NCBI RefSeq assembly: GCF_029760915.1
Contig: NZ_CP121685.1
Coordinates: 2,877,001 to 2,941,000, forward strand
From: Olleya sp. YS
GTDB lineage: Bacteria > Bacteroidota > Bacteroidia > Flavobacteriales > Flavobacteriaceae
Length of the DNA stretch: 64,000 bases
Reading direction: 5' to 3'
A program made the position numbers and the translations under genes. The notes beneath the pieces were generated by a model. The model saw only the letters and a list, made by a program, of their open reading frames with translations, was not told the origin of the DNA and ran no database searches. Shown here in pieces: positions 595-36,822 of this stretch. Numbering within the stretch: the stretch's first letter is position 1; each line of letters opens with the position of its first letter.

Positions 595-615
595 AGTTAT
601 ATTATAATGTATTAT

Positions 616-2856
<2,241 letters not shown>

Positions 2857-16539: not shown

Positions 16540-16627
16540 GGAGAAATGGCAGAGTGGTCGAATGCGGCAGTCTTGAAAACTGTTGAGGGTCACACCTCCG
16601 GGGGTTCGAATCCCTCTTTCTCCGCCA
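16540..16627 (+). tRNA. tRNA-Ser(UGA)
   Basis: An 88-nt class II tRNA with a long variable arm. The acceptor stem GGAGAAA pairs with TTTCTCC, the anticodon loop is CTTGAAA with anticodon TGA, the T loop is GGTTCGAATCC, and CCA is encoded at 16625-16627. The 3' half (16603-16625) is the integration target of the two adjoining mobile elements and remains intact, so the gene should be functional. Confidence 0.97.
16603..16625 (+). other. attL: integration site in the tRNA-Ser 3' end
   Basis: This stretch contains the 13-bp core CCTCTTTCTCCGC (16613-16625), repeated exactly at 39140-39152 and 47272-47284; all three copies are also preceded by GGTTC ten bases upstream. It marks the left end of the tandem elements. 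Confidence 0.88.
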
Positions 16628-16726: not shown

Positions 16727-16770
16727 GGTGACCTTTTGGGTGACCTTTTTAAAACCTTTTTTAGGTCACC
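16727..16770. repeat. Arm-type repeats, left end of element 1
   Basis: GGTGACCT at 16727-16734 and 16739-16746 (12-bp period) plus the inverted copy AGGTCACC at 16763-16770; another inverted copy at 16854-16861 abuts the integrase start. The same direct pair with the same 12-bp period recurs at the right end (39061-39080). Probable integrase arm-binding sites and possible autoregulation of int. Confidence 0.7.
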
Positions 16771-16864
16771 TATTTGTTAATAACTACTTACAAATCAATT
16801 AGTTAAACACAAAATAAGACCTAATTATTTCGTAAATTAATGTATAATTTTAAAGGTCACCAGA

Positions 16865-18115
16865 ATGAACAAAACATTTGGATTATTATTCTACTTGAAG
16901 AAAAGTAAGGTAGATGCACAGGGCAAATGCCCTATTTATCTTCGTATTACCATAGATGGTAAACGTACAGAAATCAGTACAAAACGCAGTATTGAAGTTA
17001 ATAAATGGAACAGTCAAGGCAATAAAGCAATTGGAAGAACTGAAGACATAAGAGAGCTTAACGCTTATTTAGATTCCCTTACTACAAAAGTATATCAAAG
17101 TCAAAGAGACCTAATTCAAGACAATAAAGAGGTCACTACAGAAACCCTAAAGAATAAGTTTTTAGGTATTGAAGAAAAAGAGCGTACACTCATAACCATT
17201 TTTGAAAACCATAATACACAAGTAAAAAAGTTAGTTGGTAGAGAATTTTCAGCAGGTACTTTAGAGCGCTACAAAACCGTATGCAAGCATCTTAAAGAAT
17301 TTATGCAGCATCAGTATAAAGTAAGCGATATAAGTATTAAGCGAGTAAACCACCAATTTATAACAGACTTTGAGTTTTACTTAAAAACCGTTAGAAACTG
17401 CGGACACAACAGCACCATTAAATACATAAAGAATTTCAAAAAAATAGTGCGTATTGCTCTGGCTAATGGTTGGATAGCAAAAGACCCATTTTTAAATTAC
17501 AAAGTACGTTTAAAAGAAGTCGAGCGTCAATTCCTTTCAGAAGAAGAAATACAAACAATGCTCGAAAAAGAATTACACACCAATCGATTAGAGCAAGTAA
17601 GAGACATTTTCATTTTCTGTTGCTTTACTGGTTTAGCCTATAGCGACGTTAAGAAGCTCTCAAAAGATAATTTGGTATTTGGTATTGATGGCGATAAATG
17701 GATTAAAACAAAACGTACTAAAACCGATACACGCAGTAATATTCCACTTCTTCCAACAGCTTTAGAGATTATAAAGAAATACGAGAACCATCCAGAGGCA
17801 GTAACAAAAGGTGTTTTACTTCCTGTTTTAAGCAATCAAAAGTCCAATGCCTATTTAAAAGAGATAGCAGACTTGTGTGGTATTCATAAAAACTTAACCA
17901 CCCATTTAGCTCGACACACCTTTGCAACTACGGTAACATTATCTAATGGTGTTCCAATGGAATCAGTAAGTAAAATGTTAGGTCATAAATCACTAAAAAC
18001 GACACAACATTATGCTAAAATATTGGATAGAAAAGTAAGCGATGATATGGCAATTTTAAAACAAAAATTTGCTAACAAAACTAATACTGACGCTTCAAAA
18101 AGGATTGCAAACTAA
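16865..18115 (+). CDS. int: Tyrosine-type site-specific integrase, element 1
   Basis: Recombinase that would insert and excise element 1 at tRNA-Ser. The 416-aa protein has an N-terminal Arm-DNA-binding domain (FYLKKSKVDAQGKCPIYLRI), a core-binding SAM-like domain (about residues 110-210), and a catalytic domain with HLARHTFAT, LGHKSLKTTQHY and nucleophile Tyr383. This is the common Bacteroidota integrase type. An arm-like repeat ends 3 bases before its ATG, which suggests that Int can limit its own expression. Confidence 0.93.
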   Translation: MNKTFGLLFYLKKSKVDAQGKCPIYLRITIDGKRTEISTKRSIEVNKWNSQGNKAIGRTEDIRELNAYLDSLTTKVYQSQRDLIQDNKEVTTETLKNKFLGIEEKERTLITIFENHNTQVKKLVGREFSAGTLERYKTVCKHLKEFMQHQYKVSDISIKRVNHQFITDFEFYLKTVRNCGHNSTIKYIKNFKKIVRIALANGWIAKDPFLNYKVRLKEVERQFLSEEEIQTMLEKELHTNRLEQVRDIFIFCCFTGLAYSDVKKLSKDNLVFGIDGDKWIKTKRTKTDTRSNIPLLPTALEIIKKYENHPEAVTKGVLLPVLSNQKSNAYLKEIADLCGIHKNLTTHLARHTFATTVTLSNGVPMESVSKMLGHKSLKTTQHYAKILDRKVSDDMAILKQKFANKTNTDASKRIAN

Positions 18116-18312: not shown

Positions 18313-18576
18313 ATGACATTTGAAGTAATTACAAAGGATGATTTAAAGACTCTAAAACAAGAAATCATCACAGAACTTAAGACAATTTTAGGAAGCCAAA
18401 CAGAGCAAAAAAAGTGGTTAAAATCAGCAGACGTTAGAGAGATGCTTAACATCTCACCAGGTACACTGCAAAACTTACGTGTGAATGGTACTCTACCCTA
18501 CACAAAAATGGGTAAAACAATGTACTATGAGTATGACGATGTAATTAAAATTTTAACCCAAAACAAGAGTGCTTAA
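18313..18576 (+). CDS. HTH_17 / excisionase-like DNA-binding protein
   Basis: An 87-aa protein with an N-terminal amphipathic helix and a MerR-like winged helix (about residues 35-85, WLKSADVREMLNISPGTLQ then LPYTKMGKTMYY). Such proteins in Bacteroidota elements act as excisionases or regulators. Its TAA overlaps the next ATG by one base (TAATG), so it is translationally coupled to the polymerase-like gene. Confidence 0.85.
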   Translation: MTFEVITKDDLKTLKQEIITELKTILGSQTEQKKWLKSADVREMLNISPGTLQNLRVNGTLPYTKMGKTMYYEYDDVIKILTQNKSA

Positions 18577-20105
18577 TGAGATTATACATACCAGAGAATT
18601 TAGACATAGACCAAATTGTCTATGATTACCCACCTAATTTTAAGAAATACAAACACAAAAGAGATAAACTATTATATGTCATTCACTTAATAAATGCGCT
18701 TACACTCTACAACAAAGATTTAATGTATGATGACTTTGTATCTATAAGTGCAAAAATCTTACAGGACAAAATATCTAATTACAAAGAGTACTTAAATTAC
18801 CTAATCAACGTTGCAAAAATTATAGAGACGGATAATCAATACTTTGTTGGCTCAAAATCAAAAGGGTTTAGACTTACTGAAAAATACAGATGCGAAGTAG
18901 CTATTCATTCTATTAGCGACCAAACATTTCACAGGAAGCTAAAAGTTGAGCGTAACAATAGAGTGGTTTCAGTAAAACACCTAAACTATCTAACAAAATG
19001 GTTTGATGAAAAATTAGAAATTGATATTGATTACGTCAACAAGTTTTTAGCAGAAGAATATGCATTAAAGAAAGACAACAAATCTTTGTGGCAATCCAAA
19101 AAGGTTAATAATTATGGGAAAGTCCAAGTCAAATATAAAAGACCGATTGACCAATTAAACCACGCAAAAATTAGTGCGGAAAAAATAAGTCGTCAAGATT
19201 ATTATTTGTTACACGATGATAATGTGTATCGCTTTCATTCCAACCTTACTAATATGAGGAGCGTTATCAGAAATGCAGTAACGTATGATGGTCAAAAATT
19301 AATTTCGATTGATATTAAAAATAGTCAACCTTATTTAAGCACCATATTGTTGAGTCGTTCGTTCTGGATTGAGCAAAAAAATGAGCCAAATGCACAAAAA
19401 GAGTTGTCAATCACGTTTGACGAGCCCAAAAATCGACCTTTTTATTCTTTTAATAGTATAAATGATAATATTTATAAGGTTAATGGTAATATTAATGATA
19501 GAATGAATATATCACATATCAAAGTACACGATACTGATTCTTACATTATGTTAGGAGATATTGATAAAACCCTTATGAATAGTGAGTTTAGTCAGTATAT
19601 AAATCTTGTGGTGAGTGGAACACTTTATGAGTTTTTAGAAGAACGCTTTTCAATCCTTTTAGGTGAAACCTTTGCTAACCGCAAAGAGGTTAAAACAGCA
19701 GTATTCCAAGTGCTATTTACAGATAATAGGTTTTTGGGGCAAGAGGATGCAAAACCAAAGAAGATGTTTAAGGAGATGTTCCCAAACGTATATGATGTGT
19801 TTAGACAGATTAAGAGTAAAGACAAATCACTACTTCCAAGATTGTTGCAGAGTATTGAGAGCTACTTAATGATAGATGTTATAGCAAAGCGTATATCAGC
19901 AGAATATCCAGATGCACCAATATATACAATACACGATAGTATTTCTACAACAGAAGAATACATAGACGTGGTTGAGGCTATAATGAAAGAGGAGTTATCT
20001 AAAGCCATAGGTCACGCACCTAAATTAGCTCGTGAGGAATGGTGTAAGAGCAATATGGTAAAGTATCTCGAAACCTTAAAGGAGAAAGCAAAGGTTGTGG
20101 CATAA
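18576..20105 (+). CDS. Putative PolA-fold nucleic-acid polymerase of the element (unannotated family)
   Basis: A 509-aa protein without an obvious family name, but the C-terminal 300 residues show the order of motifs of family A polymerases. Arg219 in VYRFHSNLTNM sits where Pol I has its GRLSS-PNLQN loop. Motif A follows as ISIDIKNSQPYL with Asp246. Motif B is R369-x3-K373-x3-F377-x3-F381, the O-helix spacing. Motif C is IHDS with His453-Asp454, as in T7 RNA polymerase. The first 210 residues show no exonuclease motifs. It may copy or prime the excised element. Catalysis (DNA or RNA) is inferred, not shown. Coupled to the HTH gene. Confidence 0.62.
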   Translation: MRLYIPENLDIDQIVYDYPPNFKKYKHKRDKLLYVIHLINALTLYNKDLMYDDFVSISAKILQDKISNYKEYLNYLINVAKIIETDNQYFVGSKSKGFRLTEKYRCEVAIHSISDQTFHRKLKVERNNRVVSVKHLNYLTKWFDEKLEIDIDYVNKFLAEEYALKKDNKSLWQSKKVNNYGKVQVKYKRPIDQLNHAKISAEKISRQDYYLLHDDNVYRFHSNLTNMRSVIRNAVTYDGQKLISIDIKNSQPYLSTILLSRSFWIEQKNEPNAQKELSITFDEPKNRPFYSFNSINDNIYKVNGNINDRMNISHIKVHDTDSYIMLGDIDKTLMNSEFSQYINLVVSGTLYEFLEERFSILLGETFANRKEVKTAVFQVLFTDNRFLGQEDAKPKKMFKEMFPNVYDVFRQIKSKDKSLLPRLLQSIESYLMIDVIAKRISAEYPDAPIYTIHDSISTTEEYIDVVEAIMKEELSKAIGHAPKLAREEWCKSNMVKYLETLKEKAKVVA

Positions 20106-20168: not shown

Positions 20169-21971
20169 ATGAGTATAGAAGATTTAAGATTGAGAGCAAA
20201 CGGTGAATATGAAATCAAAATATTTCAAATTGATACTACGCATAGAGATATTAAAGGCTTAACTAATCATCAAATAGTCAATACCCTTGTAAAACACCAC
20301 AAAACAAGAATTGATGAAACAGAATCTATAAATGTAGAATTATTACCCAAGGTAATAGATGGTGTTCACTATTACACATACGTCTACAACGAAAAAGAAA
20401 AAAAAGCACATTGGGATAGTTTTTTACCTACCACATTATCAGAGAACCTTGACTTCACAGTTCTAAAAATATCATTTGTGTTGTTTGCTTGTATAGACAA
20501 TAAAATATTTGCTGTTATTGGAGGAGGTGGTACAATGGTTATAAAGGCATTTCAAAATCATCGTTTTGGATTGGAGTTTTATGAATATCTAACAACTCTT
20601 GATGAAGAAATTGTCTCACTTACAACAAGAGGTATTTCTGGGACATTAACCCAAAGTAATAGAATTTTTAAAGAAGGCCAACGATTAAGTGATGTTCTAA
20701 ATTTTGTAAATATTCCTACGAGTATTAATTTAATTTTAAAAGATGCTATTAGAGATACATATTTTGATTTTATAGATTTTGGAGATAAAAATGTACAATT
20801 AGAAATTGCTTCATATTTTCACATAAAACATAGAATCTCATTTGCAGAATTGCATTTACTATTTAAGAGAATTAATGAAATTATAGATACCCAAACAAGA
20901 AGACCTTTAACATCATTTGTAGAAATTAAAGAAAGAGGTTTAACAGATAATGAATTTGTAAAAATCTTAATGATTGAGCTTCGTGATGATATGTTAAATA
21001 GATTTTCTCAAACAAGAGGGCAAAACCCTAAAAAAGCCGATATAGATTTTGTTCATCCATCTAAAATAAAGCAGTTCTATGAGTGCGATAGATTTGAGAT
21101 AAAGATGAAAGGGCAACGCAAAGACTTTTTAGAAGTTAAGGATAGAAATAAAATTTATGAGGATGGTCTAAAATATATTTTTAATCAACTTGATTTAAAT
21201 GCAAGCCAAGTAGATTTTAACAAACTAATGTGGGGATTAAAAGTTGAAGGATTTAAGGGAAATCAAAAAAAGAAATATGTATGGGCAAACTTTTGGCATT
21301 ATGTGACCTGTGAACTACAATATGAAAATAAGCCTATATTTCATATAGATTCTAAATGGTATTTTGTAAAAGATGATTTTACAGACTCTATGAATCAATT
21401 ATGTAGTCAAATGATTAATAGACATCATTCTCAAAGAAATATTTTATTTAACCCTTGGATTTCAAGTAGTGAAGATGCCTATAATTCTCTTTACAGAAAT
21501 GAGCCTAATTATTGGGTTTTTGATAAAGCGTTAGGGCAGAATATTGAGCTATGCGATATTATGTATGAAAGTGATGATACAATTTATCTTATTCATATTA
21601 AAACAGGTTTTGATGCTAAAATTCGTGATTTATGTAACCAAATAGTTATTTCGGCCAATAGGTTTATGATTTCTCGTAATTCTGGAGATAATGCATTTGT
21701 CAATGATGTTATAGATAGCTATAATAGAAGAGCTGATAATGTTGGTTATGAGATTGCAGATAAGGATTCATTTATTCAAAAATTTGCTACAGGAGGTAAA
21801 GAAATAGTGTTTGTAATGGCATTTAAGTCAGATACACAACGTGTTCCTGTCATTAGAAATAATGTCGAAAAGTTAGAGTCTAATATTGCTAAATTCTCTT
21901 TAATTCAATGTATCAGGGAAATGAGCACTTTTAATTATCCCATTGAGATAATAGAAATAAGTAATTCTTAA
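20169..21971 (+). CDS. DUF6119/TIGR04141-like protein, candidate defence nuclease
   Basis: A 600-aa cytoplasmic protein. Residues 95-165 match my memory of DUF6119: a W-x-x-F, then KIFAVIGGGGTMVIKAF and FGLEFY. Residues 450-500 carry IELCDIMYESDDTIYLIHIK followed by NQIVISANRF, close to the ELCDL/HVK/Q-VSA pattern of that family. E460, D463 and K478 could form a PD-(D/E)xK-like site. DUF6119 members are sporadic and often lie in defence islands; their activity is not settled. It sits between replication and metal genes as likely cargo. The family call is from memory and should be tested by profile search. Confidence 0.5.
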   Translation: MSIEDLRLRANGEYEIKIFQIDTTHRDIKGLTNHQIVNTLVKHHKTRIDETESINVELLPKVIDGVHYYTYVYNEKEKKAHWDSFLPTTLSENLDFTVLKISFVLFACIDNKIFAVIGGGGTMVIKAFQNHRFGLEFYEYLTTLDEEIVSLTTRGISGTLTQSNRIFKEGQRLSDVLNFVNIPTSINLILKDAIRDTYFDFIDFGDKNVQLEIASYFHIKHRISFAELHLLFKRINEIIDTQTRRPLTSFVEIKERGLTDNEFVKILMIELRDDMLNRFSQTRGQNPKKADIDFVHPSKIKQFYECDRFEIKMKGQRKDFLEVKDRNKIYEDGLKYIFNQLDLNASQVDFNKLMWGLKVEGFKGNQKKKYVWANFWHYVTCELQYENKPIFHIDSKWYFVKDDFTDSMNQLCSQMINRHHSQRNILFNPWISSSEDAYNSLYRNEPNYWVFDKALGQNIELCDIMYESDDTIYLIHIKTGFDAKIRDLCNQIVISANRFMISRNSGDNAFVNDVIDSYNRRADNVGYEIADKDSFIQKFATGGKEIVFVMAFKSDTQRVPVIRNNVEKLESNIAKFSLIQCIREMSTFNYPIEIIEISNS

Positions 21972-22075: not shown

Positions 22076-22393
22076 GTGAAATTTGTAACAATCATATTAT
22101 CCTTAATAATACTATTGCTTTCGGCAAAACCTTGTTCTGATGGTCAAAACATAGAAGACCAACATCAAGACGAGATAAGTGTTAATCACAACCATCAAGA
22201 AGATAGTGACGATTCTTGTCCTGTCACTTGTATTTGTAATTGTTGTGGTATGTCTATTACTTACGAACCAATCAAGACATTTAATTTAAAACTCAATATT
22301 GAAATCTCATCGGAGTTAATTTCTACATATCAACCTATTTATAGGTTTAACTTCCTTTCCAATATTTGGCAACCGCCACAAGTAATAAGCTAA
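22076..22393 (+). CDS. DUF6660-like secreted Cys/His-rich protein
   Basis: A 105-aa protein with an N-terminal signal segment followed by a His/Asp-rich stretch (QHQDEISVNHNHQ) and CPVTCICNCCG, a likely metal-binding patch. Small proteins like this precede metal TonB receptors in Bacteroidota and may buffer metal in the periplasm; that role is inferred. The only start that keeps the signal peptide is GTG at 22076, almost at the predicted transcription start. First gene of the metal island. Confidence 0.7.
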   Translation: MKFVTIILSLIILLLSAKPCSDGQNIEDQHQDEISVNHNHQEDSDDSCPVTCICNCCGMSITYEPIKTFNLKLNIEISSELISTYQPIYRFNFLSNIWQPPQVIS

Positions 22394-22442
22394 AACGTTT
22401 CGATTTTAAATCAATTATTTAGTTAATTACAATTATAATTCA

Positions 22443-24629
22443 ATGAATAAATACCTATTGAGCCTAAAGCTCATATTAATACTTTGCCTATCGTTAAAGG
22501 CACAAACATCAGACATACAAATTAAAGTCATAACAGAGGCAGATAACGAACCTTTAATGGGTGCTACGGTTTACTTTGAGGCATTAGAAAAAGGTGCAGT
22601 TACCAATTTTGATGGTGTCGCAGAATTTACAGAAATACCAGAAGGCGAACATCAAATAGTAATTTCCTTTTTAGGTTTTGAAACATTAGAAACCACAATT
22701 CAAATTCCAAGTAATACAGAATTAGTGTTTAAGCTAAAAGAAGGTGGTAACGAATTGGATGCTGTCGTATTACAATCTACAAGAAGTACAAGAACAGTAA
22801 GAAAAATACCTACACGTATAGAGTTTATTGGTGCAGAAGAATTGGGAGAAAAAGCAATAATGAATCCTACCAATATTTCTATGGTGCTTCGTGAAAGTAC
22901 AGGAATACAGATGCAACAAACGTCATTAAGTAGTGGTAGCACTAATATTAGGATTCAAGGATTAGATGGTAGATATACCCAACTATTAAGAGATGGGTTT
23001 CCATTATATGGTGGTTTTTCAAGTGGTTTAAGTATTTTACAAATACCACCTTTAGACTTACAACAATTTGAGATAATCAAAGGAAGTTCTTCAACACTTT
23101 ATGGCGGTGGTGCAATAGCAGGATTGGTTAATATGGTTTCTAAAACACCAGATGAAGAACCTGCTTTGGACATTATGCTTACACAAACACAAGCATTAGG
23201 AAGTACTGCAAATGTGTTTTACAGCAAACGAAATGAAAAGTTTGGTGTTTCACTCTACGGCTCTGGTCACTATCAAAAAGCATTTGACCCAGAAGATGAT
23301 GGCTTTAGTAATCTGCCAAAAACAACATCAATTTCTTTCAACCCTAAATTGTTTTATTATCCATCGGATAAAACAACACTTTGGTTTGGATTAAACGGAA
23401 CATATGATGATAGAATTGGTGGTGATATTACTAAAATTGAAAATGGTGAAGATGGAATTCATCAGTACACAGAAGAAAACAATTCAAAACGATTAAGCAG
23501 TCAATTTGTATATGAGACCCAATTAGATTCTGTTAGCTCATTTCAATTTAAAAACAGTGTCTCTTTTTTTGATAGGAATTTAACTGTTCCTGATTTTAAT
23601 TTTGACGGTCAGCAAACAAACACTTTTACTGAAATCTCATATAATACAGCATCAGAAAAAATGGATTGGATATTAGGAGCTAATTTATATACTTCAAATT
23701 TTGATGAAAATGATGACGCACCATTACAACGAGACCAAAAAGATGTAACCTTTGGGGCATTTGCAAATAATATCTATGACATATCGGATAATTGGATATT
23801 GGAAACAGGATTAAGAGCAGATTACAATACTGATTTCGGTTTCTTTCCATTGCCACGAGTTTCATTGCTCTATAAAAATAATAGTGGGTTTTCAAGTAGA
23901 ATTGGTGGAGGTTTAGGGTATAAAATCCCAGACATTTTTACAGAAGAAGCAGAGTATATCAATTTTGAAAATGTACTTGCAATAGATAAATCTACAGTAG
24001 ATGCAGAACGTTCTTATGGTGTTAATTTTGATTTAAACTATCAAACCCGTTTATCTGATGAGATTGGTTTTTCTGTGAATCAATTATTCTATGTGACTGC
24101 AATAAATGATGGATTGCTTTTAAATTCAACAGATAACGGATTATTTCAGTTTGAAAATGCACCAGATGAAATCTTTAGTAAAGGAGCAGAAACAAATATA
24201 AAATTTACATACAAAGACTTTAGATGGTTTTTAAACTATGCGCTTATTGATACCAAACTAAATTATTTGCCTGGTAATCCACAGAAGCCATTAACCGCAA
24301 AGCATAATGCAGGTAGTGTATTAATGTATGAGTCTGAAAAGTGGCGTATAGGTTATGAAACCTACTATACAGGAAAACAATTCTTATCCAATGGTACAGA
24401 AACTACAGACTTTGTAACTATGGGTTTATTGGTGATGCGTAACTTTAAATTAGGTAGTGTATTTGTGAACTTTGAAAACTTTACAGATAGAAGACAAAGC
24501 AGATTTTCACCTTTGGTTTTACCACCACACGAAAATCCAGTTTTTCCTGAAATTTACGCACCTACAGATGGTTTTATTTTTAGTGTAGGGCTAATTATTA
24601 AACCATTTGGTAACGAAGACCACGATTAA
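22443..24629 (+). CDS. TonB-dependent receptor, probably metal-linked
   Basis: Outer-membrane gated channel of 728 aa. A signal peptide (LSLKAQ) is followed by a carboxypeptidase-like beta domain (about residues 22-105), a plug domain (about 115-230, with VVLQSTRSTRTVRKIPTRIE and GLDGRYTQLLRDGFP) and a C-terminal beta barrel ending in VGLIIKPF. It is preceded by the DUF6660-like gene and followed after 2 bases by a Fur-family regulator, so the substrate is probably a metal ion or complex. Confidence 0.9.
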   Translation: MNKYLLSLKLILILCLSLKAQTSDIQIKVITEADNEPLMGATVYFEALEKGAVTNFDGVAEFTEIPEGEHQIVISFLGFETLETTIQIPSNTELVFKLKEGGNELDAVVLQSTRSTRTVRKIPTRIEFIGAEELGEKAIMNPTNISMVLRESTGIQMQQTSLSSGSTNIRIQGLDGRYTQLLRDGFPLYGGFSSGLSILQIPPLDLQQFEIIKGSSSTLYGGGAIAGLVNMVSKTPDEEPALDIMLTQTQALGSTANVFYSKRNEKFGVSLYGSGHYQKAFDPEDDGFSNLPKTTSISFNPKLFYYPSDKTTLWFGLNGTYDDRIGGDITKIENGEDGIHQYTEENNSKRLSSQFVYETQLDSVSSFQFKNSVSFFDRNLTVPDFNFDGQQTNTFTEISYNTASEKMDWILGANLYTSNFDENDDAPLQRDQKDVTFGAFANNIYDISDNWILETGLRADYNTDFGFFPLPRVSLLYKNNSGFSSRIGGGLGYKIPDIFTEEAEYINFENVLAIDKSTVDAERSYGVNFDLNYQTRLSDEIGFSVNQLFYVTAINDGLLLNSTDNGLFQFENAPDEIFSKGAETNIKFTYKDFRWFLNYALIDTKLNYLPGNPQKPLTAKHNAGSVLMYESEKWRIGYETYYTGKQFLSNGTETTDFVTMGLLVMRNFKLGSVFVNFENFTDRRQSRFSPLVLPPHENPVFPEIYAPTDGFIFSVGLIIKPFGNEDHD

Positions 24630-24631
24630 TT

Positions 24632-25045
24632 ATGGAAACAATAGAACAAGTATTAGAATCAAAACAAGTACGTGTTACAGCAATGCGTTTGTTAATTTAT
24701 AAGTTTCTTGCTGAAAAAGAAATTGCGGTAACATTAAGTGATATTGAAAATGCTTTTGAAAAAGCAGATAGAACTACGCTTTACAGAACTATTAAAACTT
24801 TTGAAGAAAAGGATATTGTACACCAAATAGACGATGGTACAGGTATTACAAAATACGCATTATGTGAACAAGGTTGCAATTGTGAAATTGAAACCGATTT
24901 ACATCTTCATTTCCATTGTAATAATTGTAATGAAACCATTTGTTTAACAGACCATAAAATACCTCAAATTAAAGTACCTGATGGATTTGTTTCAGAAAAC
25001 GTAAACTTGGTTGTAAAAGGTATATGTGATAAGTGTAGTGGCTAA
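24632..25045 (+). CDS. Fur-family transcriptional regulator
   Basis: Metal-sensing repressor of 137 aa: winged helix (RVTAMRLLIYKFL, RTTLYRTIKTFEEKDIV) and a dimerisation domain with HLHFHCNNC and a C-terminal CDKC, giving two CxxC pairs for structural zinc. The extra Cys in EQGCNCEIETDLHLHFH is typical of Bacteroidota Zur-like or metal-stress members. Two TTGCA-type operators flank it, before the DUF6660-like gene and just after its stop, so it probably controls both transcription units. Its metal cannot be decided. Confidence 0.88.
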   Translation: METIEQVLESKQVRVTAMRLLIYKFLAEKEIAVTLSDIENAFEKADRTTLYRTIKTFEEKDIVHQIDDGTGITKYALCEQGCNCEIETDLHLHFHCNNCNETICLTDHKIPQIKVPDGFVSENVNLVVKGICDKCSG

Positions 25046-25048
25046 TAA

Positions 25049-25085
25049 TTGCACTTCCATTGCACTTACTATTAAAGTACATTTA
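25049..25085 (+). promoter_or_regulatory. Second operator-promoter of the metal island
   Basis: TTGCAC-TT-CCATTGCA at 25049-25064 differs from the 22035 site only in the two middle bases. A -7-like TACATTTA (25078-25085) follows 13 bases later. It probably drives DUF3703, merTP and the ATPase. Confidence 0.55.
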
Positions 25086-25101
25086 TCCAAAATTAGTGAA
25101 T

Positions 25102-25464
25102 ATGAAGTTTAATACTAAAATACCTAAACATATCAAACAGGCTTATATCGAAGAATTAAAACAATACAGTTTCTGTTTAGAAAATAAGCGGTTTGGTAAT
25201 GCTTGGTTTCATTTAGAACGCAGTCATATAATAGGACAGTCTTATCCTATAGAACATACCTATTCACATTGGCTAATGCTAAAGTTTGGATTTAGACAAA
25301 AAGATACTAAAGAAGTATTCGGTCAAATTATTAGATTGCTTGTTGGTGGTTGGAAATCATTTATAAATCACGTTCCTCTTGGTAATACAGGTGGCGCAAA
25401 CGTACCACCATTAAAACGTATGCCTATTCCAAATGACATTGAAAAAGTATTAGATATAGAATGA
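25102..25464 (+). CDS. DUF3703 family protein
   Basis: A 120-aa soluble protein matching DUF3703, with the conserved AWFHLERSHIIGQSYPIEHTYSH histidine-rich helix region and GNTGGANVPPLKRMPIP near the end. The family travels with metal-resistance genes but its function is unknown. I chose the ATG at 25102 rather than an upstream TTG, because the upstream bases overlap the promoter and the family starts near this point. Its stop overlaps the merTP start by 4 bases. Confidence 0.8.
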   Translation: MKFNTKIPKHIKQAYIEELKQYSFCLENKRFGNAWFHLERSHIIGQSYPIEHTYSHWLMLKFGFRQKDTKEVFGQIIRLLVGGWKSFINHVPLGNTGGANVPPLKRMPIPNDIEKVLDIE

Positions 25465-26048
25465 AAAATAAATTAGCGGTTACAAGTATCCTAACAGCAA
25501 TCACAGCTTCATTGTGTTGCATCACACCAGTTTTGGCATTAATTGCAGGAACAAGTGGTGTAGCTTCAACTTTTTCTTGGATAGAACCATTTAGACCTTA
25601 CTTAATAGGGCTAACTATATTAGTTCTTCTCTTTGCTTGGTATCAAAAATTAAAACCAGAAAAAGAAATCGACTGTGAATGTGAAACGGATAAAAAACCA
25701 AAATTTATTCAGTCAAAAACCTTTTTAGGAGTTGTAACAGTATTCGCAATAGTGATGTTGGCATTTCCATACTACTCAAGTATGTTTTATCCAAATTCAG
25801 AGAAACAAATTGTTGTCGTTGATAAATCAAATATCAAAACAACAGAGTATAAAATAAGTGGAATGACTTGTCCCAGTTGTGAAGCTCACGTAAACCACGA
25901 AGTAAATAAACTTAACGGAATTGTGAACTCAAAAACATCATACAAGAATGGTAACGCAATCATTGAGTATGACCAAACTAAAACTAATGAATTAGAAATT
26001 GAGAAAGCAATTAATTCTACAGGTTATAAAGTAACTGATAAAAATTAA
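25461..26048 (+). CDS. merTP: Mercuric transport protein MerTP (MerT-MerP fusion)
   Basis: Inner-membrane metal importer of 195 aa. The MerT part has a Cys pair in the first helix (SLCCITP) and further helices, with a cytoplasmic CECE loop near residue 71. The C-terminal domain (about 130-195) is a MerP-like HMA fold with GMTCPSC. In the family it brings Hg(II) into the cell for MerA, but no mercuric reductase or MerR is present here, so this copy may act on another soft metal or feed the adjacent ATPase. Confidence 0.88.
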   Translation: MKNKLAVTSILTAITASLCCITPVLALIAGTSGVASTFSWIEPFRPYLIGLTILVLLFAWYQKLKPEKEIDCECETDKKPKFIQSKTFLGVVTVFAIVMLAFPYYSSMFYPNSEKQIVVVDKSNIKTTEYKISGMTCPSCEAHVNHEVNKLNGIVNSKTSYKNGNAIIEYDQTKTNELEIEKAINSTGYKVTDKN

Positions 26049-26053
26049 AATTG

Positions 26054-26260
26054 ATGCAAACTATATTAAAATCTGAAATCACTTGCCCAACCTGTGGTCA
26101 TAAAAAGGAAGAAGATATGCCAACAAATGCCTGTCAATTCTTTTATGAATGTGAGAAATGTAAAACAGTTTTAAAACCAAACAAAGGAGATTGTTGTGTG
26201 TATTGTTCTTATGGTACAGTTCCTTGTCCACCAATTCAACAAAACAAAAGTTGTTGTTAA
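26054..26260 (+). CDS. Small Cys-rich protein of the GDCCVYCSYG family
   Basis: A 68-aa protein with CPTCGHKKEEDMP, then CEKCKT, then GDCCVYCSYGTVPCPP and a CC end. The eleven cysteines and CxxC pairs suggest a zinc- or thiol-metal binding protein. Homologues follow merTP in many Bacteroidota, from memory, without a known role. The ATG at 26054 is preferred to the adjacent TTG. It is in the same run as merTP and the ATPase. Confidence 0.75.
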   Translation: MQTILKSEITCPTCGHKKEEDMPTNACQFFYECEKCKTVLKPNKGDCCVYCSYGTVPCPPIQQNKSCC

Positions 26261-26270
26261 AACTAACTTG

Positions 26271-28223
26271 ATGAAAAAAAAGAAAATCAATTTAAAAGAT
26301 TTAAAACCAAATTCAGAAGCACAACATTCTCACGATGATGGTCATAATCACGGTAATGGAAGTGCATTCAAAACATACATTCCTGCTATCATAAGTTTTG
26401 TTATGTTAATGGTAGGTATCGCTGTAGATTATTTTGATGCGATTCCTCAATTTCAAGGATTGATTCGAGTAGTTTGGTACACTTTAGCATATATTCCAGT
26501 TGGATTTCCTGTAATTAAAGAAGGATGGAAAAGTCTTATAAAAGGCGATGTTTTTACCGAGTTCTTTTTAATGTCTATTGCCACCATTGGTGCGTTTATC
26601 ATTGGTGAATATCCTGAAGGTGTGGCAGTAATGCTATTTTATGCAGTAGGAGAATTATTTCAAAACGCAGCAGTTAATAGAGCAAAAGGAAATATTAAAG
26701 CCTTATTAGATGTTCGACCAAAAGAAGCCAATGTATTTCGTGATGGTGATTATGTTAGTGTGTCGCCAGAAGCTGTAAATATTGGTGAAAAAATACAAAT
26801 TCGAGTAGGTGAGAAAATACCGTTAGATGGGATTTTATTATCCGAAAAAGCATCTCTAAACACCGCAGCGTTAACAGGCGAGAGCAAACCAGATTCCATT
26901 CAGAAAGAAGCAAAGGTTTACGCAGGTAGTATCAATTTAGAAAGCGTTATTGAAGTTGAGGTAACTAATAAGTTTGAAGACAGTTCTATTGCGAGAATAT
27001 TAGATTTGGTTCAAAATGCTACAGCTCGTAAGTCTAAAACAGAACTATTTATTAGACAGTTTGCTCGTATCTACACACCAATTGTTGTGTTTTTAGCTAT
27101 TGGTGTTACTTTTATACCTTACTTTTTTGTAGATGATTATGTGTTTAGAGATTGGTTATACAGAGCATTAATTTTCTTGGTAATATCTTGTCCTTGTGCC
27201 TTAGTGATTTCAATTCCATTAGGATATTTCGGTGGATTGGGAGCAGCTTCAAAAAATGGAATATTATTTAAAGGTGCTTCATTTTTAGATGCTATGACCA
27301 AAATAAATACTTTGGTAATGGACAAAACAGGAACCGTTACCAAAGGTGTTTTTAAAATCAAAGAAGTAAAAGCAATTGGTTGGAATGAAACCGAATTTAT
27401 GCAATACTTAATGGCGTTGGAAGAACAATCCACGCATCCAATTGCTAAAGCCATTTTAGAGTACAAAGCTGAAGGAGAAGATTTTGAAGCACAAGACGTT
27501 TCTGAAATTGCAGGTAAAGGTTTAAAAGGCGTTGTTAATGGTAAAACAGTTTTAGTAGGAAATAAAGCCTTAATGACTGCGAATAATATAAATGTTCCAT
27601 CTGAAACGGAATCTATTGTAGAATCGATAGTATTAGTTGCAATCGATAATCAATTTGCAGGTTATGTAGTCATAGCAGATGAATTAAAGGAAGATGCAAA
27701 AGAAACTATTACAGCATTACACAAAGTAGGCATTAAAAATATTATGATGCTTTCCGGTGATAAAGATTCCATCACGCAACAAGTCGCTAAAGAGTTGAAT
27801 ATCGAAAATGCTAAAGGTGGTTTACTTCCAGAAGATAAATTAAACGAAGTTGAAATTTTAAAGAAAAATCCTGAAAACAAAATAGCCTTTATAGGTGATG
27901 GTATTAACGATGCACCTGTTTTAGCAGCAAGTAACGTTGGTATTGCAATGGGTGGTTTAGGTAGTGATGTAGCTATTGAAACAGCAGACGTTATCATTCA
28001 AACCGACCAGCCTTCAAAAGTAGTTAGAGCCATTAAAATAAGTCGTTCTACAAGAAAAATTGTTTGGCAAAATATCATTTTAGCGTTTGGAGTTAAAGTT
28101 ATTGTCTTGATATTAGGAGCAGGTGGTTTAGCCACAATGTGGGAAGCTGTTTTTGCAGATGTAGGAGTAGCATTATTAGCAATTTTAAATGCAGTTCGAT
28201 TGCAGAAAATGAAATGGGATTAA
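26271..28223 (+). CDS. Heavy-metal P1B-type ATPase (Zn/Cd type)
   Basis: Membrane pump that exports metal ions with ATP, about 650 aa. Motifs: actuator TGES, the metal-binding CPCAL in the sixth helix, phosphorylation DKTGTVTKG, STHP of the nucleotide domain, and GDGINDAPVLA. The N-terminus has a His-rich HSHDDGHNHG stretch instead of an HMA domain; a separate HMA is supplied by MerTP. CPC with this context suggests P1B-2 (Zn/Cd/Pb). The ATG at 26271 was chosen because the upstream extension lies in the previous gene. Confidence 0.92.
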   Translation: MKKKKINLKDLKPNSEAQHSHDDGHNHGNGSAFKTYIPAIISFVMLMVGIAVDYFDAIPQFQGLIRVVWYTLAYIPVGFPVIKEGWKSLIKGDVFTEFFLMSIATIGAFIIGEYPEGVAVMLFYAVGELFQNAAVNRAKGNIKALLDVRPKEANVFRDGDYVSVSPEAVNIGEKIQIRVGEKIPLDGILLSEKASLNTAALTGESKPDSIQKEAKVYAGSINLESVIEVEVTNKFEDSSIARILDLVQNATARKSKTELFIRQFARIYTPIVVFLAIGVTFIPYFFVDDYVFRDWLYRALIFLVISCPCALVISIPLGYFGGLGAASKNGILFKGASFLDAMTKINTLVMDKTGTVTKGVFKIKEVKAIGWNETEFMQYLMALEEQSTHPIAKAILEYKAEGEDFEAQDVSEIAGKGLKGVVNGKTVLVGNKALMTANNINVPSETESIVESIVLVAIDNQFAGYVVIADELKEDAKETITALHKVGIKNIMMLSGDKDSITQQVAKELNIENAKGGLLPEDKLNEVEILKKNPENKIAFIGDGINDAPVLAASNVGIAMGGLGSDVAIETADVIIQTDQPSKVVRAIKISRSTRKIVWQNIILAFGVKVIVLILGAGGLATMWEAVFADVGVALLAILNAVRLQKMKWD

Positions 28224-28294
28224 GCAGATTAATCAATTAAACTTCTGTTAAACAAAATCAATAGTTGTTAAAATTTCGTAACTTCGCAATCAAT

Positions 28295-28708
28295 ATGAAG
28301 CAGATTTTCCATAAAATAATGTCTTTAGCAATGACTTTTGTAGTGTTATTCTCTACAATGTCATTTACTGTGAATATGCATTATTGTGGAGATACTTTAG
28401 TAGAATCTGCTATCTTTCAAAAAGCCAAAGGTTGCGGAATGGAAATGGAAAAGCCTTCAACCGAAGAATGTTCTATTACCAAGAAAAATTGTTGTGATGA
28501 TAAACAATTAGCAATTGAAGGTCAAGACGAATTACAATTGCAAGTTGACAAAATCACGTTTGAGCAACAAGTATTCATCGCTTCATTTGTTTATACTTAC
28601 ATTAACCTTTTTGAAGGTTTAGACAGTAATGTATCTACCTACGAAGAATACAAACCACCACTCGTCATAAGGCAACTCTACAAGATTGACGAGACATACT
28701 TAATTTGA
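28295..28708 (+). CDS. HYC_CC_PP family protein
   Basis: A 137-aa protein with an N-terminal membrane/signal segment and the family hallmarks: MHYCGD, the NCCDD pair and KPPLVIRQ near the C-terminus. The family is found beside metal exporters in Bacteroidota; a periplasmic metal-handling role is inferred. The ATG at 28295 fits the signal peptide better than the upstream TTG. It precedes the Cus-type RND genes. Confidence 0.85.
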   Translation: MKQIFHKIMSLAMTFVVLFSTMSFTVNMHYCGDTLVESAIFQKAKGCGMEMEKPSTEECSITKKNCCDDKQLAIEGQDELQLQVDKITFEQQVFIASFVYTYINLFEGLDSNVSTYEEYKPPLVIRQLYKIDETYLI

Positions 28709-28815
28709 TTTTTAAACAATAGACTCTTTTATCCTATGACTGCAATGTCGTAAGGATAATTTACTGTATTCGGTGTTTTTACAACACTATTGTCTAATTG
28801 TTTAAAATCAATCAT

Positions 28816-31800
28816 ATGCTAAATAAAAGCATCAAATTTTTAATAGAAAACAAACTCGTTGCAGTTTTACTACTTGTCCTTTTCGTAGGATGGGGAACTG
28901 TTAATGCACCATTTAATTGGGATACAGGTTTTTTACCAAGTAATCCTGTAGCTGTAGATGCAATTCCAGATATAGGTGAAAACCAACAAATTGTATTTAC
29001 GAAATGGGACGGTCGTTCACCACAAGATATTGAAGATCAAATTACTTATCCATTAACCACATCATTGTTGGGTATTCCTGGAGTAAAAACCATACGCAGC
29101 TCGTCTATGTTTGGCTTTTCAAGTATCTATATCATTTTTGAAGAAGACATAGAGTTTTACTGGAGTAGAAGTCGTATTCTCGAAAAACTCAATTCATTAC
29201 CAAGTGGTTTATTGCCTGAAGGTGTTAATCCTGCATTGGGTCCAGATGCTACAGGATTAGGTCAAATATTTTGGTACACTCTTGAAGGTCGTGACGAAAA
29301 CGGAAACGTTACTGGCGGATGGGATTTACACGAATTACGAAGCATTCAAGATTACTATGTAAAATATGCATTATCCTCTGCTAGTGGTGTGTCTGAAGTT
29401 GCATCCATTGGTGGTTATGTACAGGAATACCAAGTGGATGTAAACCCAGAATTAATGCGTCAATATAATATTGGTTTGCACCATATTGTTAAAGCAGTTA
29501 AAGAAAGTAACCGAGATATTGGAGCACAAACATTAGAAATCAATCAAGTCGAATATTTAGTACGTGGTTTGGGTTATGTGAAATCCATAGCAGACATCGA
29601 AAATGCAGTTATAACTTCAGAAGATTACACAGCTATCAAAATTAAAGATGTGGCAAAAGTGTCTTTAGGTCCTGCAACAAGACGTGGTATTTTAGATAAA
29701 GAAGGTGCAGAAGTGGTTGGTGGTGTTGTAGTAGCACGTTATGGTGCTAACCCAATGGAAGTGATTAATAATGTAAAAGCCAAAATAAACGAATTAAGCG
29801 CAGGACTACCTACAAAAACATTAGCAGATGGTAGAACATCACAAGTAACAATAGTACCATTTTACGACCGTACAGAATTGATTCAAGAAACATTAGGTAC
29901 ACTAAATGAGGCCTTAACATTAGAGATACTCATTACCATTTTGGTCATTATCATTATGGTATTCAATCTTCGTGCTTCCGTATTAATCTCTGGTTTATTA
30001 CCTGTAGCAGTTTTAATGGTATTTATAGCAATGAAACTATTTGGTGTAGATGCTAATATTGTAGCACTATCGGGTATTGCTATTGCAATTGGTACAATGG
30101 TAGATGTTGGTGTCATACTTTCAGAAAACATCATAAGACATTTAGACGAAAACGAAAACAAATTACCAATAAACACAATCGTTTACAACGCAACAGCAGA
30201 AGTATCTGGTGCAATCGTAACCGCAGTAATGACAACCATTATCAGTTTTATTCCTGTATTTACTATGATTGGTGCTGAAGGAAAATTATTTAGACCATTA
30301 GCATTCACAAAAACCTTTGCATTAACAGCTTCGATAATTGTAGCCTTATTTTTAATTCCACCGTTTGCAGCCTTTTTATTCCGAAAAAAGAGCATTCATA
30401 AACATTTTAAATATGCTTTAAACGGTGTTTTAATAGTATTAGGAATAGCAGCAATAATTTATGGATATTGGTTAGGAATCATACTCATCGCTTTTGGTGT
30501 CACAGCTTTATTAAATCTTCAAAACAAGATTTCAGATAAACAAGCAAACTTTGCCAACATCATCATTTCTGCTTCGGCAATCGTATTCTTATTAGCAGAA
30601 TATTGGCGACCGTTAGGAGTAAACGAAAGCATTTTCTTAAACCTCATTTTTGTAGCCATTATTTGTTTTGGCTTGTTAGCTGTGTTTTCATTATTCATTA
30701 AATTTTACACACGTATTTTAAGATGGTGTTTAGACAATAAATTATTATTTCTTTTCATACCTACAGCAATTGTCATTGCAGGATTTTTCATAATGAAAAA
30801 TACAGGTAAAGAGTTTATGCCATCATTAAACGAGGGTTCTTTTCTATTAATGCCTACCTCTATGCCTCATTCAGGTGTGGAAGAAAACAAACGTGTTTTG
30901 CAGCAATTGGATATGGCTGTTGCCAGTATTCCAGAAATTAAAACCGTTGTAGGTAAGGCAGGTAGAACGGAATCTGCTTTAGATCCTGCACCATTATCAA
31001 TGTATGAAAATATCATTCAATACAAACCTGAATATATGCTGAATGATAAAGGAGAACGTCAGTGTTTCAAAGTCAATGAAGATGGATTATATCAATTAAA
31101 AGATGGTCGTTTAATTCACAATGAAAATATAGCTGTCAGTTCGGGCGCAGTCGAGAACAATGCGTTTATAAAGTCAACTTTATTAAATATAGAAAGGTCT
31201 CAATTAATCCCAGACGATGATGGCGAGTTTTACCGAAACTGGCGACCAGAAATACAATCACCAGACGACATTTGGAACGAAATCGTTAAAGTCACTAAAA
31301 TACCAGGTGTCACAACAGCACCAAAACTACAACCTATTGAAACCCGATTGGTAATGCTACAAACAGGTATGCGAGCACCAATGGGAATCAAAATAAAAGG
31401 ACAAGATTTAAAAGAAATCGAAGCTTTTGGAATGCAGTTAGAAACCATTTTAAAAGAAGCTGAAGGAGTAAAGGATGAAGCCGTTTTTGCAGACCGTATT
31501 GTAGGTAAACCGTATTTGCTAATCGATATTGACAGAGAAAAGATTGCACGTTATGGTGTAAGTATTGAAGAGGTGCAAAACGTATTAAAAGTAGCTGTTG
31601 GTGGCATGTCATTAACCCAAACCGTTGAAGGTCGTGAGCGTTATGGTGTACGTGTGCGTTACCCAAGAGAATTACGAGCAAATCCAACAGACTTACAACA
31701 GATTTATGTGCCAGTTGAAAAAGGCAGCCCTGTTCCATTAAGCGAATTGGCAACTATTCGTTACGAACAAGGTCCACAAGTGATAAAAAGTGAAGATACC

Positions 31801-32556
31801 TTTTTAGTAGGCTATGTGTTGTTTGATAAACAAGATGGCCATGCAGAAGTCAATGTAGTTGAAAATGCGCAGGCAATTATTCAAAGTAAAATTGATTCAG
31901 GTGAATTAGTAGTCCCAAAAGGCATTAATTATCAATTTACAGGAACTTACGAAAATCAATTACGTGCCGAAAAAACCTTATCGGTTGTTGTGCCTTTAGC
32001 ATTGGCTATTATCTTTTTAATTCTGTACTTCCAATTCCGTTCGGTGGGTACATCATTAATGGTTTTTACAGGGATTGCAGTAGCTTTTGCAGGTGGCTTT
32101 TTAATGATATGGTTATACGGACAATCGTGGTTTTTAAACTTCAGTGTCTTTGGTGAAAATCTGCGTGATTTATTCCAAATGCACACCATTAATTTAAGTG
32201 TAGCTGTTTGGGTAGGCTTTATTGCGCTTTTTGGAATTGCAACGGATGATGGTGTGGTTATGGCAACCTACTTAACACAAACATTCGATAGAAATTCACC
32301 AGAAACTAAAAAGGAAATTAGAGCATCTATTGTAGAAGCAGGTGAAAAACGTATTAGACCGTGTTTAATGACTACAGCAACAACCATTTTAGCACTCTTG
32401 CCAGTACTAACATCAACAGGACGAGGTAGCGATATTATGATTCCTATGGCAATACCTAGTTTCGGTGGAATGTTAATCGCTTTAATCACCTTATTTGTTG
32501 TGCCAGTTTTATATAGCTGGAAAGCCGAAGTTCAACTTAAAAGAGTATCAAAATGA
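28816..32556 (+). CDS. cusA: CusA/CzcA-family heavy-metal RND efflux pump
   Basis: Inner-membrane proton-driven pump that sends metal through the CusCBA trench, 1246 aa. The fourth-helix motif reads GTMVDVGVILSEN, closest to CusA (GAMVDAAIVMIEN) rather than CzcA, which supports monovalent Cu/Ag. It is longer than the usual ~1040 aa because of an extra hydrophobic insert (about residues 530-610) and a longer periplasmic loop. The next gene overlaps it by 4 bases. ATG at 28816 chosen over an upstream TTG. Confidence 0.9.
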   Translation: MLNKSIKFLIENKLVAVLLLVLFVGWGTVNAPFNWDTGFLPSNPVAVDAIPDIGENQQIVFTKWDGRSPQDIEDQITYPLTTSLLGIPGVKTIRSSSMFGFSSIYIIFEEDIEFYWSRSRILEKLNSLPSGLLPEGVNPALGPDATGLGQIFWYTLEGRDENGNVTGGWDLHELRSIQDYYVKYALSSASGVSEVASIGGYVQEYQVDVNPELMRQYNIGLHHIVKAVKESNRDIGAQTLEINQVEYLVRGLGYVKSIADIENAVITSEDYTAIKIKDVAKVSLGPATRRGILDKEGAEVVGGVVVARYGANPMEVINNVKAKINELSAGLPTKTLADGRTSQVTIVPFYDRTELIQETLGTLNEALTLEILITILVIIIMVFNLRASVLISGLLPVAVLMVFIAMKLFGVDANIVALSGIAIAIGTMVDVGVILSENIIRHLDENENKLPINTIVYNATAEVSGAIVTAVMTTIISFIPVFTMIGAEGKLFRPLAFTKTFALTASIIVALFLIPPFAAFLFRKKSIHKHFKYALNGVLIVLGIAAIIYGYWLGIILIAFGVTALLNLQNKISDKQANFANIIISASAIVFLLAEYWRPLGVNESIFLNLIFVAIICFGLLAVFSLFIKFYTRILRWCLDNKLLFLFIPTAIVIAGFFIMKNTGKEFMPSLNEGSFLLMPTSMPHSGVEENKRVLQQLDMAVASIPEIKTVVGKAGRTESALDPAPLSMYENIIQYKPEYMLNDKGERQCFKVNEDGLYQLKDGRLIHNENIAVSSGAVENNAFIKSTLLNIERSQLIPDDDGEFYRNWRPEIQSPDDIWNEIVKVTKIPGVTTAPKLQPIETRLVMLQTGMRAPMGIKIKGQDLKEIEAFGMQLETILKEAEGVKDEAVFADRIVGKPYLLIDIDREKIARYGVSIEEVQNVLKVAVGGMSLTQTVEGRERYGVRVRYPRELRANPTDLQQIYVPVEKGSPVPLSELATIRYEQGPQVIKSEDTFLVGYVLFDKQDGHAEVNVVENAQAIIQSKIDSGELVVPKGINYQFTGTYENQLRAEKTLSVVVPLALAIIFLILYFQFRSVGTSLMVFTGIAVAFAGGFLMIWLYGQSWFLNFSVFGENLRDLFQMHTINLSVAVWVGFIALFGIATDDGVVMATYLTQTFDRNSPETKKEIRASIVEAGEKRIRPCLMTTATTILALLPVLTSTGRGSDIMIPMAIPSFGGMLIALITLFVVPVLYSWKAEVQLKRVSK

Positions 32557-33776: not shown

Positions 33777-33779
33777 AAA

Positions 33780-34511
33780 ATGACACATACATATAAAATA
33801 ACAGGAATGACCTGTGGCAGTTGCAAAGCTTCTGTAGAAAAAAGTTTAGAAAGCATTGACAATGTGACTAATGTTGAAGTTAATCTCGAAAAAGGAGAAG
33901 CTGAAGTTACAATGAGTAGCCACGTTGCTACAGAAACACTGAAAAAAGCGTTATCTGAAAAATATACACTATCTGAAAAGAAAGAAAAGAATGTGTTTGC
34001 TTCTTCAAGTATGTCGGCAATGCCAATGGAAGAAGAAAAAAGCAAACTACAGCAATTAAAGCCCTTACTACTAATCATCTTTTATATAGCAACCGCAAGT
34101 GTATTATTGCATTATAAAGATTGGAGTTGGAGTGCTTTTATGCTCGATTTTATGGGCTTATTCTACATCGTGTTTAGCTTTTTCAAAATGTTAGATTTAA
34201 AAGGCTTTCCAGAATCATTTAAAATGTACGACCCATTAGCAAAACGAGTCCCTGCTTATGGTTGGGTATATCCTTTTATCGAAACAGCTTTAGGATTAAT
34301 GTTTTTAATGCGCTTTAAAGTAGAAATTGCTTTAATAATAACACTTGTTGTTTTAGGTATTACAACTGTTGGAGTTACTAAAACATTATTGGATAAAAAA
34401 TCGATTAGATGTGCTTGTTTAGGTACAGCTCTGAAACTTCCTATGACAGAAGCCACTTTTATTGAGAATGCCATTATGATTGTAATGGCAGTATTAATGC
34501 TAATAAATTAA
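33780..34511 (+). CDS. HMA domain fused to a MauE/DoxX-like membrane protein
   Basis: A 243-aa protein with an N-terminal HMA metallochaperone fold (GMTCGSCKASVEKS, residues 1-70) followed by about four hydrophobic helices of the MauE/DoxX redox-associated type, including FPESFKMYDPLAKRVPAYGW and a Cys-containing IRCACLGTALKLP. It may pass copper or electrons at the inner membrane. Fusions like this occur in Bacteroidota copper clusters. It follows the TolC gene after 3 bases. Confidence 0.82.
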   Translation: MTHTYKITGMTCGSCKASVEKSLESIDNVTNVEVNLEKGEAEVTMSSHVATETLKKALSEKYTLSEKKEKNVFASSSMSAMPMEEEKSKLQQLKPLLLIIFYIATASVLLHYKDWSWSAFMLDFMGLFYIVFSFFKMLDLKGFPESFKMYDPLAKRVPAYGWVYPFIETALGLMFLMRFKVEIALIITLVVLGITTVGVTKTLLDKKSIRCACLGTALKLPMTEATFIENAIMIVMAVLMLIN

Positions 34512-34537
34512 ATAATAACCACTAAAATTTTAAAAAT

Positions 34538-36791: not shown

Positions 36792-36822
36792 ATAAACACA
36801 GATAATAATTAAATTTTTAAAA

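Follow-up and report, generated by a model that had tools for sequence, protein, structure and literature searches.

A divergent family A-like polymerase in the conserved core of a tRNA-Ser island of Olleya sp. YS

To our knowledge, nearly all known primases adopt one of two folds, DnaG and AEP, CcPol-MP, from islands of Bacillota, is the sole case in which a family A polymerase has been demonstrated to act as a primase, and the wider prediction for TV-Pol has hardly been tested. Iyer, Abhiman and Aravind (2008, PMC2579912) predicted TV-Pol as a primase-polymerase family carried by mobile elements; among the hosts they list are Polaribacter dokdonensis, a Flavobacteriales bacterium and Cytophaga hutchinsonii. 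Experiments have shown priming of DNA synthesis by CcPol-MP of SCCmec, the polymerase of which is of family A (PMC7581432), and Caudoviricetes encode divPolA1 and divPolA2, divergent exonuclease-less PolA proteins of 400-450 aa that stand beside a regular polymerase (PMC11348598). An exonuclease-less polymerase type of superfamily A (PolA-like) was already predicted in 2008, and what is new in the locus described here is the front part of the protein.

The window, by which we mean the whole analysed stretch of 64,000 nucleotides from Olleya sp. YS, contains the gene pol (18576..20105, + strand) for a 509-aa family A-like polymerase without an exonuclease domain. The integration target is a tRNA-Ser(TGA) gene (16540..16627, +, ARAGORN). 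The 13 bases that precede its discriminator region, CCTCTTTCTCCGC, form the attL core at the 3' end of the tRNA gene (16613..16625, +) and recur at 39140-39152 and 47272-47284; the three copies therefore delimit two tandem islands, the pol island at 16613-39152 (22.5 kb) and a second one ending at 47284, with the copy at 39140..39152 (+) acting both as the attR core of the pol island and as the junction between the two. The pol island is ordered int, xis, pol, the DUF6119 gene, metal cargo, two right-end genes and att. The integrase gene int (16865..18115, +) encodes a tyrosine recombinase with the Pfam domains Arm-DNA-bind_5, Phage_int_SAM_5 and Phage_integrase, and xis (18313..18576, +) encodes an excisionase-like HTH_17 protein of 87 aa, the stop codon of which shares one base with the start codon of pol; the placement of pol next to int and Xis-like genes within a mobile element, proposed in an earlier sequence-only reading, is thereby supported. 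GGTGACC/GGTCACC repeats at the left end (16727..16861, +), to which a AGGTGACCT pair at 39060-39080 corresponds, are probable integrase arm sites.

Directly after pol comes a cargo gene for a DUF6119/TIGR04141 protein of ~600 aa (20169..21971, +), which is absent from all other close islands and on which a literature search for DUF6119/TIGR04141 found nothing relevant. It is followed by metal-handling cargo (22076..37263, +), comprising DUF6660, a TonB receptor, a regulator, DUF3703, a P-type ATPase, RND efflux genes and others; apart from DUF6660 and DUF3703, these names are putative and were given by recognition of the sequences. The right end of the island holds a 249-aa gene without a Pfam match (37884..38633, -) and a 62-aa gene (MSRICIYPKDVQ..., 38843..39031, +), each of which occupies the same place in the related islands L004 and L011. 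Reading of the ORFs revealed no recognisable helicase or ssDNA-binding partner in the pol island, and around pol neither an iteron array nor an origin is clearly apparent, the repeats there being confined to one of 2 x 10 bp past the stop codon and to the integrase-like arm repeats. The second island (39140-47284) uses the same tRNA-Ser site and contains an integrase (45840-47141, -), an unknown 346-aa gene (44799-45839), a Rep_1 rolling-circle initiator (43383-44411) and an Eco57I/TaqI_C-type methylase-endonuclease (39324-42953); in it a Rep gene lies near int, in the place that pol takes in the first island.

Close relatives of the island are present in Polaribacter, Winogradskyella, Maribacter, Lutibacter and others. 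The order int-xis-pol recurs in 11 close islands, with xis and pol overlapping by one base or abutting (the exception is L010, where 1.1 kb separates them), and a tRNA-Ser gene lies next to int in 10 of the 11, whereas the region downstream of pol is cargo that differs between islands. The same 13-base repeat also delimits two of these islands, L004 and L011, at 13.4 and 11.2 kb, and both keep int, xis, pol and the two right-end genes; their cargo, as we read it from the sequence, presumably consists of restriction-modification-like genes in L004 and metal genes in L011. Because the window, L004 and L011 share these five genes around unrelated cargo, pol belongs to the mobility/maintenance core. 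An empty site was sought and none was demonstrated, since in the sole relative that has the right-flank gene tRNA-Ser is missing from that place.

The pol ORF is intact, with an ATG start and zero internal stops, and its dN/dS against close relatives is 0.09-0.19, which shows that the protein is under purifying selection. The motifs named in the sequence-only reading, i.e. R219 in YRFHS (19230-19232), D246 in SIDIKNSQP (19311-19313), R369-x3-K373-x3-F377-x3-F381 (R369-K373 at 19680-19694) and D454 in IHDS (19935-19937), are all found where that reading had placed them. Their conservation was counted over 89 members of the pol family, reduced to <80% identity: R219, D246, S250, K373, E428 and D454 are each invariant (89/89), the two palm Asp residues D246 and D454 among them, and Q251 (87/89), P252 (84/89), Q425 (87/89; codon 19848-19850), H453 (88/89) and S455 (83/89) are nearly so. 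Position 369 is R in 62 members and K in 25 (87/89 together), position 381 is F in 75 and Y in 13, and at position 377 Y (49) and F (24) predominate. With six residues invariant, the motifs are kept among homologues, and the contrary outcome, non-conserved motifs, was not seen. The order of elements in pol (R219-FHSNLTN, D246-IKNSQ, R369xxxK373, Q425 and H453-D454-S455) fits that of Pol I, where they read RLSS...NLQN, DYSQIE, RxxxK, Q849 and HDE. Q425 corresponds to Gln849 of Pol I and not to His784 of T7 RNA polymerase; the T7-like trait of pol is its motif C, HDS instead of HDE.

Several members of the family depart from this layout. In the 686-aa member of L022 (1471-3531, +) homology is interrupted between window residues 267 and 301, and NUMOD1/GIY-YIG matches occur in one of 29 aligned members; judged from sequence, the L022 protein probably carries an in-frame homing-endonuclease insertion within the variable fingers insert. 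The loci L012 and L013 (9893-10660 in both) each contain a 5'-truncated pol copy of 255 aa, and in each a second, full-length distant pol homologue lies a few kb off on the opposite strand.

Searches of Pfam, NCBIfam, PHROGs and PADLOC with the pol protein returned no significant family, and a search of PDB sequences, single and profile, gave no match. A match to GABP-alpha (0.0031) and matches to PHROGs were rejected as below the cut-off and not common to the members. The Pfam search finds neither an exonuclease domain, in agreement with the absence of exonuclease motifs claimed earlier, nor any fused nuclease domain. PF00476 does not match the window protein at E <= 10, nor does it figure in the list of 24 families that 29 family members yield at E <= 1. 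The polymerase domain of pol reaches a profile-profile score of 27.2 against the PolA of the host, compared with a mean of 14.4 (sd 2.7, max 21.8) for a control of 60 column-shuffled decoys; the one-shot profile-profile alignment of the two is weak (E 0.041) and useful only alongside the shuffled controls. Kinship of pol with PolA thus appears faint at the level of sequence.

An AlphaFold2 model of pol, computed from 69 sequences of the window and the fetched loci, has pLDDT 80 and pTM 0.79, with residues 265-333 not modelled confidently. Foldseek reports 58 PDB matches at E <= 0.001, and the best 50 of the 58 are all family A DNA polymerases; the matches include Bst, Taq, mycobacterial Pol I and Pol theta (probability 0.98-1.00) and the apicoplast polymerase, the best one having E 7.9e-5 and probability 1.00. 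Identity in these fold alignments is 12% at best. TM-scores over the whole chain are low (0.26-0.37), hence the fold claim rests on the local fold, the motif order and the probability and not on global superposition. The best matches of pol among BFVD models are A0A516L5C2 (4e-24) and, from an uncultured marine phage, a 'putative DNA polymerase I' (9e-20); the replication protein of the Zamilon virophage ranks lower (E 5.5e-4). In the pol model, strands 212-214 and 219-221 supply the hairpin with R219 before motif A, and helices 116-132, 134-140, 151-165 and 190-205 stand ahead of the palm. A palm/fingers fold is predicted, and the opposite outcome, a model lacking these domains, was not seen; that pol has a polymerase fold is, from this model, near certain. 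The sequence-only reading had proposed a fit to both family A polymerases and T7-type RNA polymerases, and the former part stands, whereas the latter is weaker: no RNA polymerase occurs among the 50 best PDB matches. T7-type RNA polymerase was rejected as an identity for pol also with regard to Pfam, where there is no match, and to the profile hits, which do not include T7 RNAP.

The N-terminus, described earlier as new, is indeed unfamiliar. Residues 1-115, modelled separately (pLDDT 85), form a helix, a strand, two helices and a two-strand wing, and residues 28-100 (18657..18875, +) make up the winged-helix-like domain. Winged-helix (wHTH) proteins are abundant among the Foldseek matches of residues 1-115, all at a non-significant E > 0.1, and the top TM-scores (0.47-0.51) belong to plasmid initiators of the RepA_N type (entries titled initiator, Rep-DNA complex); in its predicted structure, the N-terminus looks like a winged helix. 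An allelic exchange block (18426..19175, +) extends from the 3' part of xis through pol residue 200 and exists in two allele classes: over residues 35-200 of pol in the close islands, identity is 93-98% and 87-98% within the classes and 61-64% between them, compared with 81-94% across both classes in the catalytic part. Synonymous divergence is 2.2 in the block versus 0.45-0.58 in the catalytic segments that flank the variable insert, and the block has therefore been exchanged by recombination; L009, the most diverged elsewhere, has a class B block. Upstream of pol no non-coding segment tracks the two classes, which only the end of xis does. A swapped, putatively DNA-binding half over a constant catalytic core is what would be expected for a replication-specificity domain.

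Sampling of 395 genomes from the class turned up the pol family in 21 of them. In the divergent loci L194, L202 and L205 (22-39% identity) a xis-like gene overlaps or touches pol, in L197, L203 and L211 such a gene lies just upstream, and altogether an HTH_17 gene is found directly upstream of pol in 6 of 20 divergent loci. A tyrosine-integrase profile matches within about 7 kb of pol in 14 of the 20, strongly (E <= 1e-40) in 10; the background of three integrases in the 3.0 Mb of the window's genome (one Pfam search), two of them in the window, is a yardstick from a single genome and not a matched null. One Hymenobacter plasmid carries a pol homologue together with its own Rep_3 initiator, and a plasmid Rep role for pol, argued from this plasmid, was rejected as no proof since Rep_3 is present. 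The neighbour of that pol homologue, at 407-1180 (-) of L050 (NZ_CP060788) and annotated as 'nucleotide-binding protein', was considered as a ParA and rejected, as by Pfam it is a CAP12/Pycsar-type TIR effector.

Relatives of pol are also found in viral contigs: 123 in one IMG/VR scan (contigs to 597 kb) and 63 loci in another. A deeper viral scan yielded none. A search of 50,697 phage records gives distant homologues in six, each with a length of 595-735 kb. Al-Shayeb et al. assign the largest of their genomes, up to 735 kb, to the Mahaphage clade, with predicted Bacteroidetes hosts (PMC7162821), and from their sizes we infer that the six records are of this clade. In L017, L051 and L052 (LR756511 and two related contigs) the pol homologue either overlaps a polymerase gene that matches PF00476 or abuts it; in L200 and L201, two genomes of one genus, it is arranged tail-to-tail with a large PolA-type gene. 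The PolA of L201 (606 aa searched) has polymerase and exonuclease domains; the 635-aa ORF of L200, where a DUF5906 gene adjoins the pol homologue, is assigned as the corresponding PolA from gene order and the count of two matches. Location beside a PF00476 gene or a PolA suggests that the pol homologue is a second PolA-like enzyme with another job. DnaB-like genes were detected in 4 of 4 huge phages tested, and DnaG-like signals only in LR756511 and the contig of L051. In nine huge viral contigs (L054, L057, L059, L063, L106, L111, L114, L120 and L163) a conserved unknown trio is centred on the pol homologue, with a 436-450-aa gene directly upstream on the same strand (no Pfam match in the three tested) and, in most of the nine, a 170-190-aa gene directly downstream, also on the same strand.

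We consider it fairly probable that pol is an element-encoded primase/polymerase, close to the TV-Pol class and with a winged-helix-like N-terminal domain, that starts the copying of the excised circle. Int and Xis would excise the island as a circle, and Xis and Pol, the genes of which overlap, may be made from one transcript upon excision. The N-terminal domain would then bind the island's own DNA, as its predicted fold and the allele exchange suggest, and the predicted palm/fingers would lay a DNA primer or a short DNA stretch on the circle; host replication proteins would extend this primer, so that the circle is not lost and its copy number is raised. All the context found is consistent with the role of replicase or primer maker, as the sequence-only reading had suggested, and priming in particular is suggested by analogy, from the prediction for TV-Pol (PMC2579912), the biochemistry of CcPol-MP (PMC7581432) and the PolA partner in huge phages and genus-level contexts. 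Several findings count against a primase: the Rep_3 gene of the Hymenobacter plasmid, because of which the pol homologue is not the only replication protein there; the DnaG-like gene in two huge-phage genomes that have a pol homologue; the lack in the island of a CcPol-style helicase/ssDNA-binding partner and of a clear iteron/origin; the non-significant winged-helix Foldseek E-value; and the low whole-chain TM to Pol I (0.26-0.37). It is tempting to go further and to regard pol as a one-protein replication starter, in which an origin-recognising winged helix is fused to a primer-making PolA palm without a helicase or SSB of its own, the recognition half being swapped so that related islands can share a cell without interference, and the family furnishing the second polymerase of the largest phages; this extended version is speculative and, in our estimate, unlikely to hold as a whole.

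Other functions can be envisaged for a protein of this fold. Family A polymerases without proofreading are often engaged in repair or bypass, and a primer-dependent enzyme that fills gaps, repairs or bypasses lesions for the island, the main alternative, would agree with the coexistence of the pol homologue and DnaG-like genes in two huge phages. However, tyrosine recombinases carry out site-specific recombination without leaving a gap that would need filling, and such a function would explain neither the tight linkage of xis and pol across lineages nor the retention of pol in the minimal core, which makes it a rather unlikely solution. A T7-like single-subunit RNA polymerase, transcribing the genes of the island or making RNA primers, appears still less probable. 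It would account for HDS in motif C, as in T7 RNA polymerase, and for Gln (Q251) where Pol I has the steric gate Glu, and in Pfam one family member touches RNA_pol (E 0.18), while a PHROG RNA polymerase is matched by one at 0.016; on the other hand, the 50 best fold matches in the PDB comprise DNA polymerases only, Q425 fits Gln849 of Pol I and not His784 of T7, and no conserved promoter-like repeats were seen.

Two further options are the least probable. A role of pol in defence or conflict, as an enzyme that belongs to the cargo, is very doubtful, for the cargo changes while pol stays, PADLOC gives no match for pol, and among known defence layouts we know of none with a bare polymerase linked to xis, even if restriction-modification genes do ride on such islands (L004 and the second island of the window) and the neighbouring DUF6119 gene is a sporadic accessory. 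Equally far-fetched is an excision-control factor, i.e. an active or inactive protein of polymerase fold that acts with Xis on att DNA: the one-base overlap of xis and pol and the exchange block, which spans the 3' part of xis jointly with the N-terminus of pol, would be in line with it, but every catalytic residue is kept under purifying selection and the huge-phage homologues occur without xis.

The island offers a compact, clearly bounded Bacteroidota system, in which int, xis and pol are joined by only two small genes. The family is large and conserved, the allele swaps that have arisen naturally indicate which domain probably confers specificity, and the largest phages described contain relatives. 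The system bears on helicase-free priming by TV-Pol-like enzymes and on the means by which small integrated islands devoid of conjugation genes maintain and copy the excised form.

Among the described systems, Klenow-type DNA polymerase I shares with pol the palm/fingers fold and the order of A, B (RxxxK), a Q849-like Gln and C, but pol lacks the exonuclease domains, has HDS and not HDE, and carries Gln at the steric-gate position. The divPolA proteins are likewise exonuclease-less and divergent, and divPolA2 phages are among the BFVD fold matches of pol; they differ from it, however, in motif C, motif A and hosts. Identity of pol with divPolA1 or divPolA2 was rejected, as the scores (4.3 and 4.5 bits, the latter like that of shuffled sequences) do not rise above the controls. 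As a separate observation, 266 phage records, that of Vibrio phage ICP1 among them, contain a relative of the divPolA2 protein (PMC11348598) under the annotation hypothetical protein. The PolA-SSB primases of SCCmec and Bacillota islands (PMC7581432, PMC10061031) resemble pol in being family A polymerases of genomic islands, near a site-specific recombinase, with CcPol-type priming predicted or shown (PMC7581432, PMC10061031). However, CcPol is close in sequence to housekeeping Pol I, while the pol family has no PF00476 match; CcPol is accompanied by an OB-fold partner and by a helicase of the same operon, whereas reading of the ORFs of the pol island recognised neither; and the recombinase is a serine enzyme there and a tyrosine enzyme in the pol island. 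A strict PolA-SSB primase identity was accordingly rejected, pol having neither a PF00476 match nor a recognised helicase partner.

The closest described counterpart is TV-Pol, several described features of which (PMC2579912) recur in pol, so that the statement of the sequence-only reading that the system cannot be placed in a described family was too strong. Like TV-Pol, pol falls within 400-600 aa and has no fused nuclease, a beta-hairpin with an invariant Arg before motif A (R219 here), two palm Asp residues, RxxxK in the fingers, an N-terminal extra domain (present in a subset of TV-Pol) and, out of the integrase, resolvase, transposase and D5-like helicase neighbours described for TV-Pol, an integrase, with int beside pol in the window and an integrase profile near 14 of 20 divergent loci. 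TV-Pol is further described as having a conserved Asp in the fingers and a thumb of two antiparallel helices (PMC2579912), for which the helices ahead of the palm of pol are candidates. A search for a TV-Pol relative of pol in phage Ma-LMM01, run without a positive control, gave no match. Two traits differ: the N-terminal domain of TV-Pol is described as all-helical, whereas that of pol is predicted to be winged-helix-like with strands, and TV-Pol has a D5-like helicase partner, of which none was recognised in the pol island. We conclude that pol, by these described features, probably belongs with TV-Pol.
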